Origin: Euzebya pacifica
Lineage (GTDB): Bacteria > Actinomycetota > Nitriliruptoria > Euzebyales > Euzebyaceae
DNA length: 64,000 nt
Assembly: GCF_003344865.1 (NCBI RefSeq)
Contig: NZ_CP031165.1
Location: forward strand, 2,733,910 to 2,797,909
Direction: 5' to 3'
The position numbers were made by a program, and so were the translations under genes. Shown piece by piece: positions 32,074-38,283 of this stretch. Below the pieces are notes generated by a model, which was not told the origin of the DNA, did no database searches, and was given only the letters and a program-made list of their open reading frames with translations. Numbering within the stretch: position 1 is the first letter of the stretch; each line of letters begins with the position of its first letter.

Positions 32074-32092
32074 GCCCCTACTCGGGGCTTTC
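32074..32092 (+). terminator. Small hairpin with T-run upstream of rpsA
   Basis: GCCCC / GGGGC (32074-32078 with 32084-32088) has loop TACTC and is followed by TTTCTG. It lies 69 bp after the DUF983 stop and 127 bp before rpsA. It may end the upstream transcript or act as an attenuator in the rpsA leader if the promoter is upstream of it. Confidence 0.5.
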
Positions 32093-32218
32093 TGTGCTGC
32101 ACGCGAGACAGAGCCGCGCCCCAGCACCCGTCGCCCCCCGGACGAGGGGCACTCCCATCGAAGCCAGCGTCGACCGACGTCGACACCCTGCAGAATCCCC
32201 TGTGAACGGACCGCCAAC

Positions 32219-33874
32219 ATGACCGACCAGTACACCCTCACGTCCGCTGTGGACGAAGAACGCGAACGAGGTGCCGCCATCCTCCTCGAGGAGTTCGGCT
32301 CCGAAGAAGCGTTCCTCGCTGCCCTCGAGGCCACCGTCAAGGACTTCGACGACGGCGACATCGTGGAGGGGGTTGTCGTCAAGGTCGACCCCGAAGAGGT
32401 CCTGCTGGACATCGGGTTCAAGTCCGAGGGTGTCATCCCCTCGCGCGAGCTGAGCATCAAGCACGACGTCGACCCCAACGAGGTCGTCGCCGTCGGTGAT
32501 GTCATCGAGGCACTGGTCCTGCAGAAGGAGGACAAGGACGGCCGTCTGGTCCTGTCCAAGAAGCGCGCCCAGTACGAGCGCGCCTGGGGCAAGATCGAGG
32601 AGATCCACGAGCGGGACTCCACGGTCACCGGTACCGTCATCGAGGTCGTCAAGGGCGGCCTCATCCTCGACATCGGCCTGCGCGGCTTCCTGCCCGCCTC
32701 GCTGGTGGAGATGCGTCGTGTCCGCGACCTGCACCCCTACGTGGGTCAGGAGCTCGAGTGCAAGGTCATCGAGCTCGACAAGAACCGCAACAACGTCGTC
32801 CTGTCCCGTCGCAAGTTCCTGGAGGAGACGCAGAGCGAGTTCCGCCGCGAGTTCCTCGAGACCCTGCAGAAGGGCGAGATCCGCAAGGGCACGGTCAGCA
32901 GCTGCGTCAACTTCGGTGCCTTCGTGGACCTGGGTGGCGTGGACGGTCTGGTCCACGTGTCCGAGCTGTCCTGGAAGCACGTCGACCACCCCGGTGAGGT
33001 CGTCGAGCTCGGCCAGGAGGTCGAGGTCGAGGTCCTGGACGTCGACCTGGAGCGCGAGCGCGTCTCCCTGTCGCTCAAGGCGACCCAGGAAGACCCGTGG
33101 CAGCAGTTCGCCCGTCAGCACTACGTCGGCGAGTTCGTCGAGGGCAACGTCACGAAGCTGGTTCCCTTCGGTGCGTTCGTCAAGGTCGAGGACGGCATCG
33201 AGGGCCTCATCCACATCTCCGAGCTGGCCGACGCCCACGTCGAGCAGCCCGAGCAGGTCGTGAAGGTCAACGACCGGATCACCGTCAAGATCATCGACAT
33301 CGACGACGTCCGTCGTCGTATCTCCCTCTCGCTGAAGCAGGCCGTCAAGGCCGGTTACGGCGAGGCCCCGGAGATCGACGAGGCTCCGGCCTACGCCGCG
33401 GAGGACTCCTCCTCCGGTCGTGCGCCCGAGGCCGGCGACGGTGGCTCGGCCATGGGTGCTGCCCTGGCCCAGGCGCTGCAGCGCTCCCAGGGTGCGCAGC
33501 AGGCCGAGGAGGCCAGCTCCGAGGAGGGTGGCCTGTCCGCCCAGGACGTCATCGCCCGGGTTCAGGCCCAGGCTGCTGCCGTCAAGGACGACGAGCCCGC
33601 CGAGGCTGCTGCCGAGGAGGCACCGGCCGACGCGCCGGCGCCCGCCGAGGACGACACGACCACCGAGCAGGCGGTCGCTGAAGAGGCTCCCGCTGAGGAG
33701 GCTCCTGCTGAGGAGGCTGCCGTCGAGGAGGCTCCTGCTGAGGAGGCTGCCGTCGAGGAGGCCCCTGCTGAGGAGCCTGCCGTCGAGGAGGCCCCCGCTG
33801 AGGAGGCTCCTGCCGAGGAGGACGAGGCGACCGACGCCGACGCCGACGCCGACGCGTCGTCCGAGGACGAGTAG
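32219..33874 (+). CDS. rpsA: 30S ribosomal protein S1
   Basis: A 551-residue S1 with four RNA-binding OB domains at about residues 45-115, 133-200, 220-290 and 305-375, the actinobacterial pattern. Markers include GDIVEGVVVKVDPEEVLLDI, LILDIGLRGFLPASLVEMR, GTVSSCVNFGAFVDLGGVDG and GNVTKLVPFGAFVKVEDG. It brings mRNA to the ribosome. The C-terminal 170 residues are acidic and end in tandem EEAPAEEA/EEAPAEEAAV repeats and a DADADA tail. The repeated DNA (33670-33815) also gives long antisense frames that are artefacts. A 13-bp terminator follows. Confidence 0.97.
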   Translation: MTDQYTLTSAVDEERERGAAILLEEFGSEEAFLAALEATVKDFDDGDIVEGVVVKVDPEEVLLDIGFKSEGVIPSRELSIKHDVDPNEVVAVGDVIEALVLQKEDKDGRLVLSKKRAQYERAWGKIEEIHERDSTVTGTVIEVVKGGLILDIGLRGFLPASLVEMRRVRDLHPYVGQELECKVIELDKNRNNVVLSRRKFLEETQSEFRREFLETLQKGEIRKGTVSSCVNFGAFVDLGGVDGLVHVSELSWKHVDHPGEVVELGQEVEVEVLDVDLERERVSLSLKATQEDPWQQFARQHYVGEFVEGNVTKLVPFGAFVKVEDGIEGLIHISELADAHVEQPEQVVKVNDRITVKIIDIDDVRRRISLSLKQAVKAGYGEAPEIDEAPAYAAEDSSSGRAPEAGDGGSAMGAALAQALQRSQGAQQAEEASSEEGGLSAQDVIARVQAQAAAVKDDEPAEAAAEEAPADAPAPAEDDTTTEQAVAEEAPAEEAPAEEAAVEEAPAEEAAVEEAPAEEPAVEEAPAEEAPAEEDEATDADADADASSEDE

Positions 33875-33890
33875 CCACACAGACACACAC

Positions 33891-33926
33891 GAAGGACCCG
33901 AGCCACCGGCTCGGGTCCTTCTGTGT
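33891..33926 (+). terminator. Strong intrinsic terminator of rpsA
   Basis: A perfect 13-bp stem, AAGGACCCGAGCC / GGCTCGGGTCCTT (33892-33904 with 33908-33920), has loop ACC and is followed by CTGTGTT. It lies 17 bp after the rpsA stop. Confidence 0.9.
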
Positions 33927-34045
33927 TCGTGGCCAGATCCCGCGACACGACACGGATCTGTCGTCTCCCGGACAGGATTCAGTTGTTTGTCGTCGAACGC
34001 GTGTCGGGCATGTGTTCGTTGAACCGGAGCAGCCCGAGCGGTGTC

Positions 34046-34064
34046 CGGTTCCGAACGGGAACCG
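34046..34064 (+). promoter_or_regulatory. Palindromic site upstream of the duplicated lipoprotein gene
   Basis: CGGTTCCGAACGGGAACCG is a 7-bp perfect inverted repeat around GAACG, ending 18 bp before the ATG of the lipoprotein gene. A second, imperfect inverted repeat, CGAACGCGTG / CATGTGTTCG, lies at 33995-34019. Either could be an operator. The second is not a canonical LexA box because the gap between half-sites is too long. Confidence 0.5.
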
Positions 34065-34082
34065 ACAGAAAGCGGTCTACGA

Positions 34083-35441
34083 ATGAACCACTCCACTTCA
34101 CCCCTGTCCTGGCGTCTGCTGGCGCCGTTGATGGTCCTTGCCCTCGTCCTCGCCGGATGCGCGGCCGATGACTCCGACGACTCCGACGACGTCGACGATG
34201 TCGAGGTCCAGACCGAGGACGCAACCCAGTCAGACCCGGCGGCCGACGATGTCGCCTCCACTCCGGACGCCGAAGCCGCGACGGAGGACGTCGCGAGCGA
34301 GGACCCCAGCACTGCGGAGACCGAGGCTACGGAGGACGCCGAGTCCGAGCAGTCCATCGCTGCCTTCGAGAGCGTCCGGGAAGCGGCCACGTACGTGACC
34401 GACGAATCCGCACCGGCCCTGGCCGCGGGTCTGGGGCAGGCCGCGGGCTTCGACGGGGTCGACTCCGAGGGCGCAGCGCTGCAGGAGGACCTGGCCGCCA
34501 CGCTCCAGGGTCACGTCTATCTCGCCGCCATCACCCTCGAGCAGCTGCTGAAGGACCGACCGGATGCCTTCGCGGCTGCCGCCGAGTCCCTCGCAGAGAA
34601 CACCGAACGCCTGGCCGGGCTCGTGGGCTCCGTGGCGCCCGACCAGCAGGAGGCCTTCCAGAGCCTGTGGGAGAACCACATCGACTTCTTCGTCGCCTAT
34701 ACCGAAGGGGCCAAGGCTGGCGACCAGGCAGCCAAGGACGACGCGCTCGCCGGGCTGAACCAGTACCGGCAGGACGCTGGTGCCTTCTTCGCCGAGATCA
34801 CCGGCGGTGCGATCGCCGCGGAGGACGTCACGGCGAGCCTCGAGCAGCACGTCAACACCGTGATCGCCACCATCGACGGCTTCGCTGCCGGTGACACCGG
34901 CGCGTTCGACCAGCTCAAGGGTGCAGCCGACCACGTCGTGGACAACTCCGCACGTGCCCTGGCGGGCGCCATCGCGACGGCCGCCGGGATCGACGGTGTC
35001 GACACCGATGGGGCAGCCCTGCTGACCGACATCAGCACCACCCTGCAGGAGCACGTCTACCTCGCCTCCATCGCGCTGGAGCAGCTCGTCGTGGGCGACC
35101 AGGCCGCGTTCGAGGCGGCAGCCGCGACACTCGATGCGAACTCCCAGCAGCTCGCTGACCTCGTGGCCGCGGTTGCGCCCGACCAGCGTGACGCCTTCCT
35201 CTCGCTGTGGCGCAACCACATCGGATTCTTCGTCGACTACACCAACGGCCTCCTGGCCGGCGACGAGGCAGCCACCCAGGGCGCCCTAGACAACCTCGCC
35301 CAGTACCGTCAGGACGCCGGCGCCTTCTTCGCCGACATCACCGATGGTGCGCTGAGCCAGGACGCCGTCGCAGGCGGCCTGGAAGGCCACGTCGACACGG
35401 TGATCACCGCCATCGACGACGTCGGAAGCGCGCTCGCATGA
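34083..35441 (+). CDS. Lipoprotein made of an exact 180-residue tandem duplication of a helical, His-containing domain
   Basis: A 452-residue lipoprotein; signal peptide ends VLAGC (Cys26), then an Asp/Glu/Thr-rich linker to about residue 95. The remainder is two copies of an all-helical unit with a constant 180-residue (540-bp) offset. Shared elements are LQxHVYLAxxxLEQL (His144 and His324), LWxNHIxFFVxYT (His199 and His379), QYRQDAGAFFAxIT and LExHVxTVIxxID (His256 and His436). Three His per unit fall at equivalent helix positions, so metal or cofactor binding outside the membrane is possible. I recall similar LW..H...F..Y helical units in other bacteria but no named function. Own promoter region and terminator. 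Confidence 0.8.
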   Translation: MNHSTSPLSWRLLAPLMVLALVLAGCAADDSDDSDDVDDVEVQTEDATQSDPAADDVASTPDAEAATEDVASEDPSTAETEATEDAESEQSIAAFESVREAATYVTDESAPALAAGLGQAAGFDGVDSEGAALQEDLAATLQGHVYLAAITLEQLLKDRPDAFAAAAESLAENTERLAGLVGSVAPDQQEAFQSLWENHIDFFVAYTEGAKAGDQAAKDDALAGLNQYRQDAGAFFAEITGGAIAAEDVTASLEQHVNTVIATIDGFAAGDTGAFDQLKGAADHVVDNSARALAGAIATAAGIDGVDTDGAALLTDISTTLQEHVYLASIALEQLVVGDQAAFEAAAATLDANSQQLADLVAAVAPDQRDAFLSLWRNHIGFFVDYTNGLLAGDEAATQGALDNLAQYRQDAGAFFADITDGALSQDAVAGGLEGHVDTVITAIDDVGSALA

Positions 35442-36153: not shown

Positions 36154-38283
36154 TCAGCGGGGGTTGATCACCACCGCAACCGACATGGGGGCGGTCGCCA
36201 GCAGGTGGGTCACGGTGTGGCCGAGGAACGCCCCACCCTCGTGACGTGGTTCGCCACCGACGACCAGCAGCGAGGCGTTGGCCTCGACGGCAGCAGCGAC
36301 GAGGTCCTCCGCGACGGTGCGGGACCGACGCAGCTTGACGTCCACCCCGACCCCGGAGCGTTCGGCAGCCTGCCGTGGCTCGGCGAGCATCCCGTCGATG
36401 TCGGCGAAGGCCTGCGCCTGCCAGCGGGATGCCTTCTGACGGTCCCGCCGGTCGACGCGGGGCTGGTCGATGATGTGGATCATCGACAGCTCGGCCCCGC
36501 CGCCCGCCGCCATGCGGATCGCGAGGTCGATCGCCAGGCCACCTGAGGTGGTTCCGCTGGCACCCACGGCGATGCGGTCCAGGTCGATGTCCTCCGGCGG
36601 CCGGTCCAGGGCGCTGCGGACCAGCAGCACGGGCACCGTCGCGGCCGTGACGATCTGCTGCAGCACGCGGCTTGCGGTCGGGCCGCCGGCCGACGTGGCC
36701 GTGGCGCCCAGCGCGATCATCTCGTAGCCCATGACCGACTCGGCCAGGACCGCCTTCGCGGGATCCTCGGCGATGTGGTCGCGCCAGCGCATCCGCCGGT
36801 CGACGTGGGTCTGGATGCTGCGGGCCGCCTCGCGGCCGGCGACCGCGTCCTCGGCGGCGGAGTGCACGGTCAACGCGGTGATGCTGGCCGTGGGCGGCAG
36901 GACGCGGGAGAGCACGCGACCGGCCAGGACCGAGGAGCCACCACCACGGGTGGGCAACAACGCGGTCCGGACCTGCGCCAGCACGCCGGTGTCGCCCTCG
37001 TCGGGGCCGTCGGGGTCCAGCTGCAGCAGCCAGGTCAGCAGGGGAGGGGCCATCAACGACGTGGCGACGGCCATGACGACCACCGCGGAATAGGCCTCGT
37101 TGGACAGCACGCCCAAGGACAGGCCCAGGGACGCCACGACGATCTCGAGGGCCCCCCTGGCGTTGAGGCCCACGCCGATGGCGAGGCCGTCGCGGTTGCC
37201 GAAGCCGCCCAGGCGCGCGCCCACCCAGCCGCCCAGCACCTTGGCCCCGACGGCCACGGCGAGGATGGCGAGGGTCCACCACAGCAGGGGAGGGGCAACG
37301 ATCGCGAAGAGGTCGACCTTCAGGCCGGCGGTGGCGAAGAAGACGGGAGCCAGCACGTGGTCGGCCAGGGTGCTGAGCGGCTGCTCCACCCGACGGCCGC
37401 CGAGGGGTGATCGTGCCAGCACCATGCCGGCCACGAACGCGCCGAGCACGGCTTCCACACCCAGCGCCTGGGTGATCGATCCGGCGATGATCACGATGAT
37501 CACCGACACGCCGAGCATCGTCCCGTTGCTGGCGTCGTGGCGTCGGACGAAGCGCAGCAGGCGGTCGACGCCACGCTGGCCGATCGTCAGCCCACCCACG
37601 ATGGTCAGCAACGCCCCGCCCAGCGCGATGGCCAGGCCGACCGCAGGGGACGTGCCACCGCCCACGCCGCCGGAAGCCACCGCGGCGACGACGCCCAGCA
37701 GGGCCCAGCCGACCACGTCGTTGAGCATGCCGGCCGCCAGCATGATCTGACCGACGCCGGCCTTGGCGAGCCGCAGCTCACGCAGGACCTTGGCCACGAC
37801 CGGCAACGCCGAGATGCCGAGCGCCACCCCCATGAACAGCGGCAGGGCCGCCCGGTCCTCACCGCCCGAGAACGAATCGGGCAGGACCTGTCCGAGCCCG
37901 TAGCCCAGGGCCACCGGGATGACGAGGCTGGCACCACCGACCGTCAGGGCGGCCCTGCCGAGCCGCCGCAGGGTGCCGAGGTCGACCTCGAACCCGGTTG
38001 CGGCCAGCAGGAGGACCACACCCAGCCATGCCACCGCCGCGATCATGATCGCGACGGTCCCCTCGTCGGGGAACAGCTGCTCGGTCACCTGCGGGAACAC
38101 GCGTCCGAGCAGGGTGGGACCGAGGAGGATGCCGGCAGACAGCTCACCGACGACAGTGGGTTGTCCCAGCCGCTTCGCGAGGTGGCCCAGGACCTTCGCG
38201 GACGTCAGCAGGAGCGCCAGCGCGATCCAGAAGCGAAGGAGGTCGGACTCGAGGACGGCGCCAGCGGCGAGGACAGTCGTCAT
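36154..38283 (-). CDS. CPA2 cation:proton antiporter fused to two universal-stress (USP) domains
   Basis: A 709-residue protein. Residues about 15-410 are a Kef/NapA-type Na+/H+ exchanger domain with about 12 membrane helices (LGQPTVVGELSAGILLGPTLLG; LPVVAKVLRELRLAKAGVGQIMLAAGMLNDVVGWALL; GAFVAGMVLARSPL; GVGLNARGALEIVVASLGLSLG). NDVV contains the transport Asp. The cytoplasmic tail (about 450-709) holds two USP-like modules (ALTVHSAAEDAVAG to PVLLVRSAL, and IAVGASGTTSGGLAIDLAIR to SVAVVINPR), which may sense nucleotide or energy status. The start overlaps the downstream-transcribed neighbour by 4 bp. Convergent with coaE, 3 bp apart. Confidence 0.9.
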   Translation of the reverse strand: MTTVLAAGAVLESDLLRFWIALALLLTSAKVLGHLAKRLGQPTVVGELSAGILLGPTLLGRVFPQVTEQLFPDEGTVAIMIAAVAWLGVVLLLAATGFEVDLGTLRRLGRAALTVGGASLVIPVALGYGLGQVLPDSFSGGEDRAALPLFMGVALGISALPVVAKVLRELRLAKAGVGQIMLAAGMLNDVVGWALLGVVAAVASGGVGGGTSPAVGLAIALGGALLTIVGGLTIGQRGVDRLLRFVRRHDASNGTMLGVSVIIVIIAGSITQALGVEAVLGAFVAGMVLARSPLGGRRVEQPLSTLADHVLAPVFFATAGLKVDLFAIVAPPLLWWTLAILAVAVGAKVLGGWVGARLGGFGNRDGLAIGVGLNARGALEIVVASLGLSLGVLSNEAYSAVVVMAVATSLMAPPLLTWLLQLDPDGPDEGDTGVLAQVRTALLPTRGGGSSVLAGRVLSRVLPPTASITALTVHSAAEDAVAGREAARSIQTHVDRRMRWRDHIAEDPAKAVLAESVMGYEMIALGATATSAGGPTASRVLQQIVTAATVPVLLVRSALDRPPEDIDLDRIAVGASGTTSGGLAIDLAIRMAAGGGAELSMIHIIDQPRVDRRDRQKASRWQAQAFADIDGMLAEPRQAAERSGVGVDVKLRRSRTVAEDLVAAAVEANASLLVVGGEPRHEGGAFLGHTVTHLLATAPMSVAVVINPR

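Follow-up and report, generated by a model that had tools for sequence, protein, structure and literature searches.

The gene at 34083-35441 of the window, by which we mean the whole 64,000-nucleotide stretch of Euzebya pacifica DNA analysed here, raises the question of what a lipoprotein built of two repeated helical units, with histidines at matching places in each, may be doing at the cell surface, and whether selection has kept both repeats. Sequence searches of Pfam, NCBIfam and the PDB, conducted with single proteins and with profiles, yielded chance-level matches only, and no family in them covers the protein. Here we propose, with moderate confidence, that it is a surface-anchored helical metal protein lined with histidines, probably binding copper, that is partnered with a cupredoxin and belongs to a SigK-type stress regulon.

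Layout of the gene and its internal duplication

Translation of 34083-35438 (forward strand) gives a protein of 452 amino acids that starts with a signal peptide and a lipobox (LAGC26), in agreement with the initial annotation of the product as a surface lipoprotein. The features of the gene, all on the forward strand, are as follows:

34083-35441 (+): gene of the two-unit helical lipoprotein, 452 amino acids (translation and homologues)
34083-34160 (+): signal peptide and lipobox LAGC, Cys26 being the anchor (read from the translation)
34161-34358 (+): acidic, low-complexity linker, amino acids 27-92 (translation)
34362-34445 (+): helix A, amino acids 94-121, with Tyr104 at 34392-34394 (AF2 secondary structure, residue counts)
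34467-34886 (+): helices B-F of unit 1, with His144 (34512), Asn173, Trp196, His199 (34677), Tyr228 and His256 (34848) (AF2; residues invariant in 67/67 rows)
34902-34985 (+): helix A', carrying the fourth histidine, His284 (34932-34934) (His in 62/67 rows)
35007-35435 (+): helices B'-F' of unit 2, with His324 (35052), Asn353, Trp376, His379 (35217), Tyr408 and His436 (35388) (AF2, alignment counts)

When the protein was slid along itself a single peak appeared, at an offset of 180 residues, where 99 of 182 residues (54%) were identical with zero indels, identity at all other offsets being 19% or less. The constant offset of 180 residues noticed in the initial annotation is thereby borne out, and the duplication, described there as exact, is so in its indel-free spacing but not in its sequence. 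The two units comprise residues 93-452, and their DNA is 68% identical, with 57% identity at third positions. Histidines occur at positions 3, 144, 199, 256, 284, 324, 379 and 436; the pairs 144/324, 199/379 and 256/436 lie exactly where they had been listed, but the count of three per unit overlooked a fourth position of the family, which in this protein is a histidine only once (H284) and is replaced by Y104 in the first copy.

Exact spacing combined with diverged DNA had also been taken to imply selection for both copies. Examination of the family weakens this argument, since the units within one protein tend to resemble each other (median mutual identity 67%) more than they resemble the units of other proteins, and the two units of the window protein form a clade (support 0.985), each being the nearest relative of the other. 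Judging from these sequences, the units of one protein evolve in concert or arise by repeated duplication, and because sister units tend to be alike, spacing and diverged DNA alone make a weak case for selection. The invariance of both sets of histidines is the better argument.

Distribution, conserved residues and predicted fold of the family

The genome of E. pacifica holds no paralogue of the gene, only matches to its signal peptide and linker. A homologue is present in 19 of 61 related genomes, and at least one unit was found in 36 of the 296 genomes sampled from the phylum. Scanning of GTDB genomes identified 157 relatives in Actinomycetota, Bacillota, Chloroflexota and the haloarchaeon Natronocalculus, 80 of which were kept. 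Relatives with a single unit are encoded on plasmids of the proteobacterium Methylocystis and of Nocardioides. The gene on the Methylocystis rosea plasmid (L130:5794-6486), for a protein of 230 amino acids, adjoins a sigma factor gene; a gene annotated as encapsulin and NnrS lie close by. At the other extreme of unit number, two Chloroflexota proteins (L069:5833-8745 and L075:5761-8625) contain four units followed by a fused C-terminal plastocyanin-like cupredoxin domain. One further relative, cut by the end of its contig (L010:3-1637, reverse strand), has at least three units so near to identical in appearance that they look like a very recent amplification.

Conservation was counted in an alignment of 67 rows that includes the window protein. 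Invariant in all 67 rows are (window numbering) His144/324, Asn173/353, Trp196/376, His199/379, Tyr228/408 and His256/436, so that each of the two helical units of about 180 amino acids carries the pattern H-N-WxxH-Y-H; the family was scanned with the pattern LWxxHIxFFV, which makes the conservation of the Trp and the second His (WxxH) partly circular and does not affect the other residues. Histidines not conserved in homologues had been named beforehand as part of what would refute the initial claim; the six histidines are in fact invariant (67/67), and the single-unit relative keeps all four histidines of its unit. Alignment of the Methylocystis protein by hhalign (172 columns, 22% identity, E 6e-21) places its four histidines and the first Asn in register.

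The fourth histidine, at the position of H284, is kept in 62 of the 67 rows, five other members being without one. The helix that bears it is N-terminal in 18 members (N-type), with His in 17 of them and Tyr in the window protein, and C-terminal in about 48, and no member with this helix at both ends was seen in the segments read from the 67-row alignment. The two arrangements are related by a circular permutation of one helix, as is expected if the helix with the fourth histidine packs between the first and the last helices of the bundle. The haloarchaeal member from Natronocalculus (L046:5779-7095) is of the N-type and close to the actinobacterial members, a probable case of transfer between domains.

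Structure prediction with AF2 and the family alignment gave twelve long helices for the two units (pLDDT 96.2, pTM 0.93) and six helices for a single unit (pLDDT 94.0, pTM 0.88), in support of the initial reading of the units as all-helical. In the single-unit model each helix bears one conserved polar residue no more than three residues from its middle, the mean distance of these six key residues from mid-helix being 1.4 residues (p about 0.001 against random positions). On a helical wheel five of the six point no more than 55 degrees away from the hydrophobic face (mean angle, p 0.08), the His of helix A' being off that face at 161 degrees, and the test weakly backs an orientation of the key residues toward the core in the model. 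From the predicted structure we infer that the histidines of a unit may come together within the bundle. Foldseek comparison of the two-unit and one-unit models with the PDB returned nothing at E <= 0.001, with TM values of at most 0.44. The best alignments of a single unit were to helical bundles of antiparallel type; it matched the designed antiparallel six-helix barrel 8qad over 144 of 145 residues with Z 8.4, a value usual for helical bundles, and rhodopsins with Z about 7, within the range expected of them; as these Z values are middling and typical of bundles, kinship with 8qad, with rhodopsins or with any fold, new or old, is not claimed.

The lipobox is retained by most actinobacterial relatives, and members linked to a sortase end in MPxTGxG with a transmembrane segment or in PxGGVETGxGG, so that anchoring at the cell surface takes either route in the family, lipid or sortase. 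In RefSeq some members carry the name 'copper amine oxidase' (for example Planococcus WP_232336900.1). These Planococcus proteins are direct homologues with two units and have a class F sortase or a plastocyanin gene alongside; compared with the window protein, the Bacillota members have a sortase signal in place of the lipobox and helix A at the C-terminal end. We rejected the name, as Pfam found no Cu_amine_oxid catalytic or N-terminal domain in the window protein, in 12 relatives or in two proteins bearing the label, which leaves the TPQ cofactor Tyr of such enzymes no catalytic domain to lie in.

Genomic partners and a candidate promoter

Neighbours were counted at the 80 loci with profiles built from the recurrent neighbours. 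Genes of plastocyanin-like cupredoxins stand within 1 kb of the family gene at 31/80 loci and at none between 1 and 6 kb, class-F-type sortases within 1 kb at 30 loci and beyond it at 3, and sigma factors with RskA-type anti-sigmas (a SigK/RskA-type pair) mostly within 2.5 kb. Pfam confirmed the domains of these neighbours (Copper-bind/Cupredoxin_1, Sortase, Sigma70_r2/r4, RskA_C and zf-HC2). Neither cupredoxin nor sortase was found at 22 of the 80 loci, and no partner of any of the three kinds at seven; such partners are typical of the family and not obligatory. Relatives from the organism's own class (L010 to L020) have a cupredoxin alongside in nearly all cases, and on annotated plasmids 'copper amine oxidase' adjoins 'plastocyanin/azurin family copper-binding protein' or 'class F sortase'. 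A neighbourhood of this kind shows an association and not the identity of the bound cofactor, and it cannot tell electron transfer from copper handling. One plastocyanin-like neighbour, from Planococcus (L129:6152-6664, reverse strand), has its C-terminal copper-ligand segment FCEPHPVM ahead of the VQHN strand segment; Pfam finds its two pieces out of order, and from its sequence this cupredoxin looks circularly permuted.

The window gene itself lies between an S1-domain gene upstream, likely rpsA, and coaE, with a Na/H antiporter also near, and no cupredoxin, sortase or sigma factor adjoins it. Cupredoxin genes occur elsewhere in the genome, and its single RskA-type gene with an adjacent sigma gene is about 225 kb away. 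An Rfam scan of the 30-40 kb region of the window returned nothing. The S1-domain protein ends in a long acidic tail of Ala/Glu/Pro-rich repeats (EEAPAEEA..., 33460-33871); an open frame of 807 amino acids antisense to its gene, reaching into the lipoprotein gene (32078-34501, reverse strand), is most likely an artefact of high GC; and at 36154-38283 (reverse strand) a Na+/H+ exchanger has a universal stress protein domain fused at its C-terminus.

The upstream regions of the relatives share ACC(A/C)ATCCG-N15-TCCGAACC (CGAAC), the best exact word pair occurring in 14 of 50 upstream regions and in at most 4 in shuffles. This motif resembles what we take to be the mycobacterial SigK consensus, no paper giving that consensus having been found in the literature searched. 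Upstream of the window gene a position weight matrix (PWM) places the following:

34028-34057 (+): candidate SigK-type promoter, degenerate, with AGCAGCCCG (34028-34036) and TTCCGAACG (34049-34057) in the 15-base register

The matrix, built from 31 relatives, scores 9.2 at this place, a score equalled by 1.4% of random 220-base segments; the -35 element is weak and the -10 element good, and the match is suggestive only of a SigK-type promoter for the gene. Genome-wide the pattern has 76 matches, too many to define a regulon, one of which (C1:2510511) falls at the sigma/RskA pair of this genome and is a better copy than that of the window gene.

A proposed function and its rivals

In the mechanism that we propose the six long helices of each 180-residue unit would pack into an up-down bundle, and their mid-helix polar residues (His, Asn, His, Tyr, His, and His or Tyr) would line the core and hold a metal. 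Outside the membrane a cupredoxin would exchange electrons or copper between its type 1 site and this histidine site, and a SigK-type sigma factor would switch the gene on when the RskA-type anti-sigma senses a redox or metal signal in the envelope. That the histidines bind a cofactor, as had been suggested at the outset, is plausible, and the neighbours and fusions point to copper; that the protein binds metal at all, that the metal is copper, that a relay runs between it and the cupredoxin and that the window copy is so regulated are what we infer. In a more ambitious form of the proposal, in our view rather improbable, the family would be a hitherto unrecognised class of copper redox proteins at the cell surface. 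A copper centre of His, Tyr and Asn would occupy the core of the six-helix bundle and take up or hand on electrons by way of a separate type 1 cupredoxin, in a SigK/RskA-controlled response that three bacterial phyla have in common; the fold would be one for which no structure has been solved, its lineages differing by a natural circular permutation of one helix.

The polar residues might instead only stabilise the bundle through a buried hydrogen-bond network, the protein being a structural or adhesive surface component of an envelope-stress regulon. Anchoring by lipid or sortase throughout the family and the tandem repeats suit such a role, but the invariance of the histidines across phyla, down to 22% identity, exceeds the needs of packing, and the tight linkage to cupredoxins also argues against it, so that we hold it to be unlikely. 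MPT70 and MPT83 are fasciclin-domain proteins unrelated to the window family. Their presence in the mycobacterial SigK-RskA regulons (PMC7509140) speaks for the structural reading, and the likeness to those regulons lies in an ECF sigma with an RskA_C/zf-HC2 anti-sigma beside genes of surface lipoproteins.

A helical bundle with conserved mid-helix histidines would also suit a haemoprotein, in which pairs of histidines bind haem (bis-His) and the protein, as a surface haem carrier or haemoprotein, exchanges electrons with the cupredoxin; the fold search adds a weak similarity to designed haem maquettes, of a kind common for bundles. We regard this reading as quite unlikely: Foldseek gave no match at E <= 0.001, CxxCH is absent, the lone Cys being that of the lipobox, a metal site explains the invariant Asn and Tyr at least as well, and the recurrent neighbours include copper proteins and no genes of haem transport or maturation. 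EfeO and the imelysin-like (Peptidase_M75) lipoproteins are extracytoplasmic, all-helical metal proteins paired or fused with a cupredoxin, and the same pairing here, together with the cupredoxin fusions of L069 and L075, could indicate uptake of iron or another metal by a comparable helical domain. This reading appears very unlikely to us, for Pfam scans gave no Peptidase_M75/imelysin match, HxxE is absent from the window translation, the window family has six helices per unit and no sequence match to EfeO, and no permease such as EfeU recurs among the neighbours. For the histidine-lined copper protein that we prefer, copper nitrite reductase, in which a cupredoxin-type copper site works with a three-His site as a type 1/type 2 pair, offers a works-like comparison only, its histidine site lying between cupredoxin domains and the putative site of the window family in a helical bundle.

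Literature searches on class F sortase with cupredoxin, on RskA with copper and on 'copper amine oxidase' with sortase, which covered few subscription papers, yielded no description of the family, and within that literature neither the family nor its association with cupredoxin, sortase and SigK/RskA appears to have been described. A widespread and conserved surface family that has so far had only an unsupported label is now connected with copper proteins and with a regulator of defined type whose promoter can be read, and annotators have reason to stop calling it 'copper amine oxidase'. What triggers the SigK/RskA cascade of mycobacteria is described as unknown (PMC7509140), and a putative metal protein that recurs in SigK/RskA regulons offers a testable lead on it.
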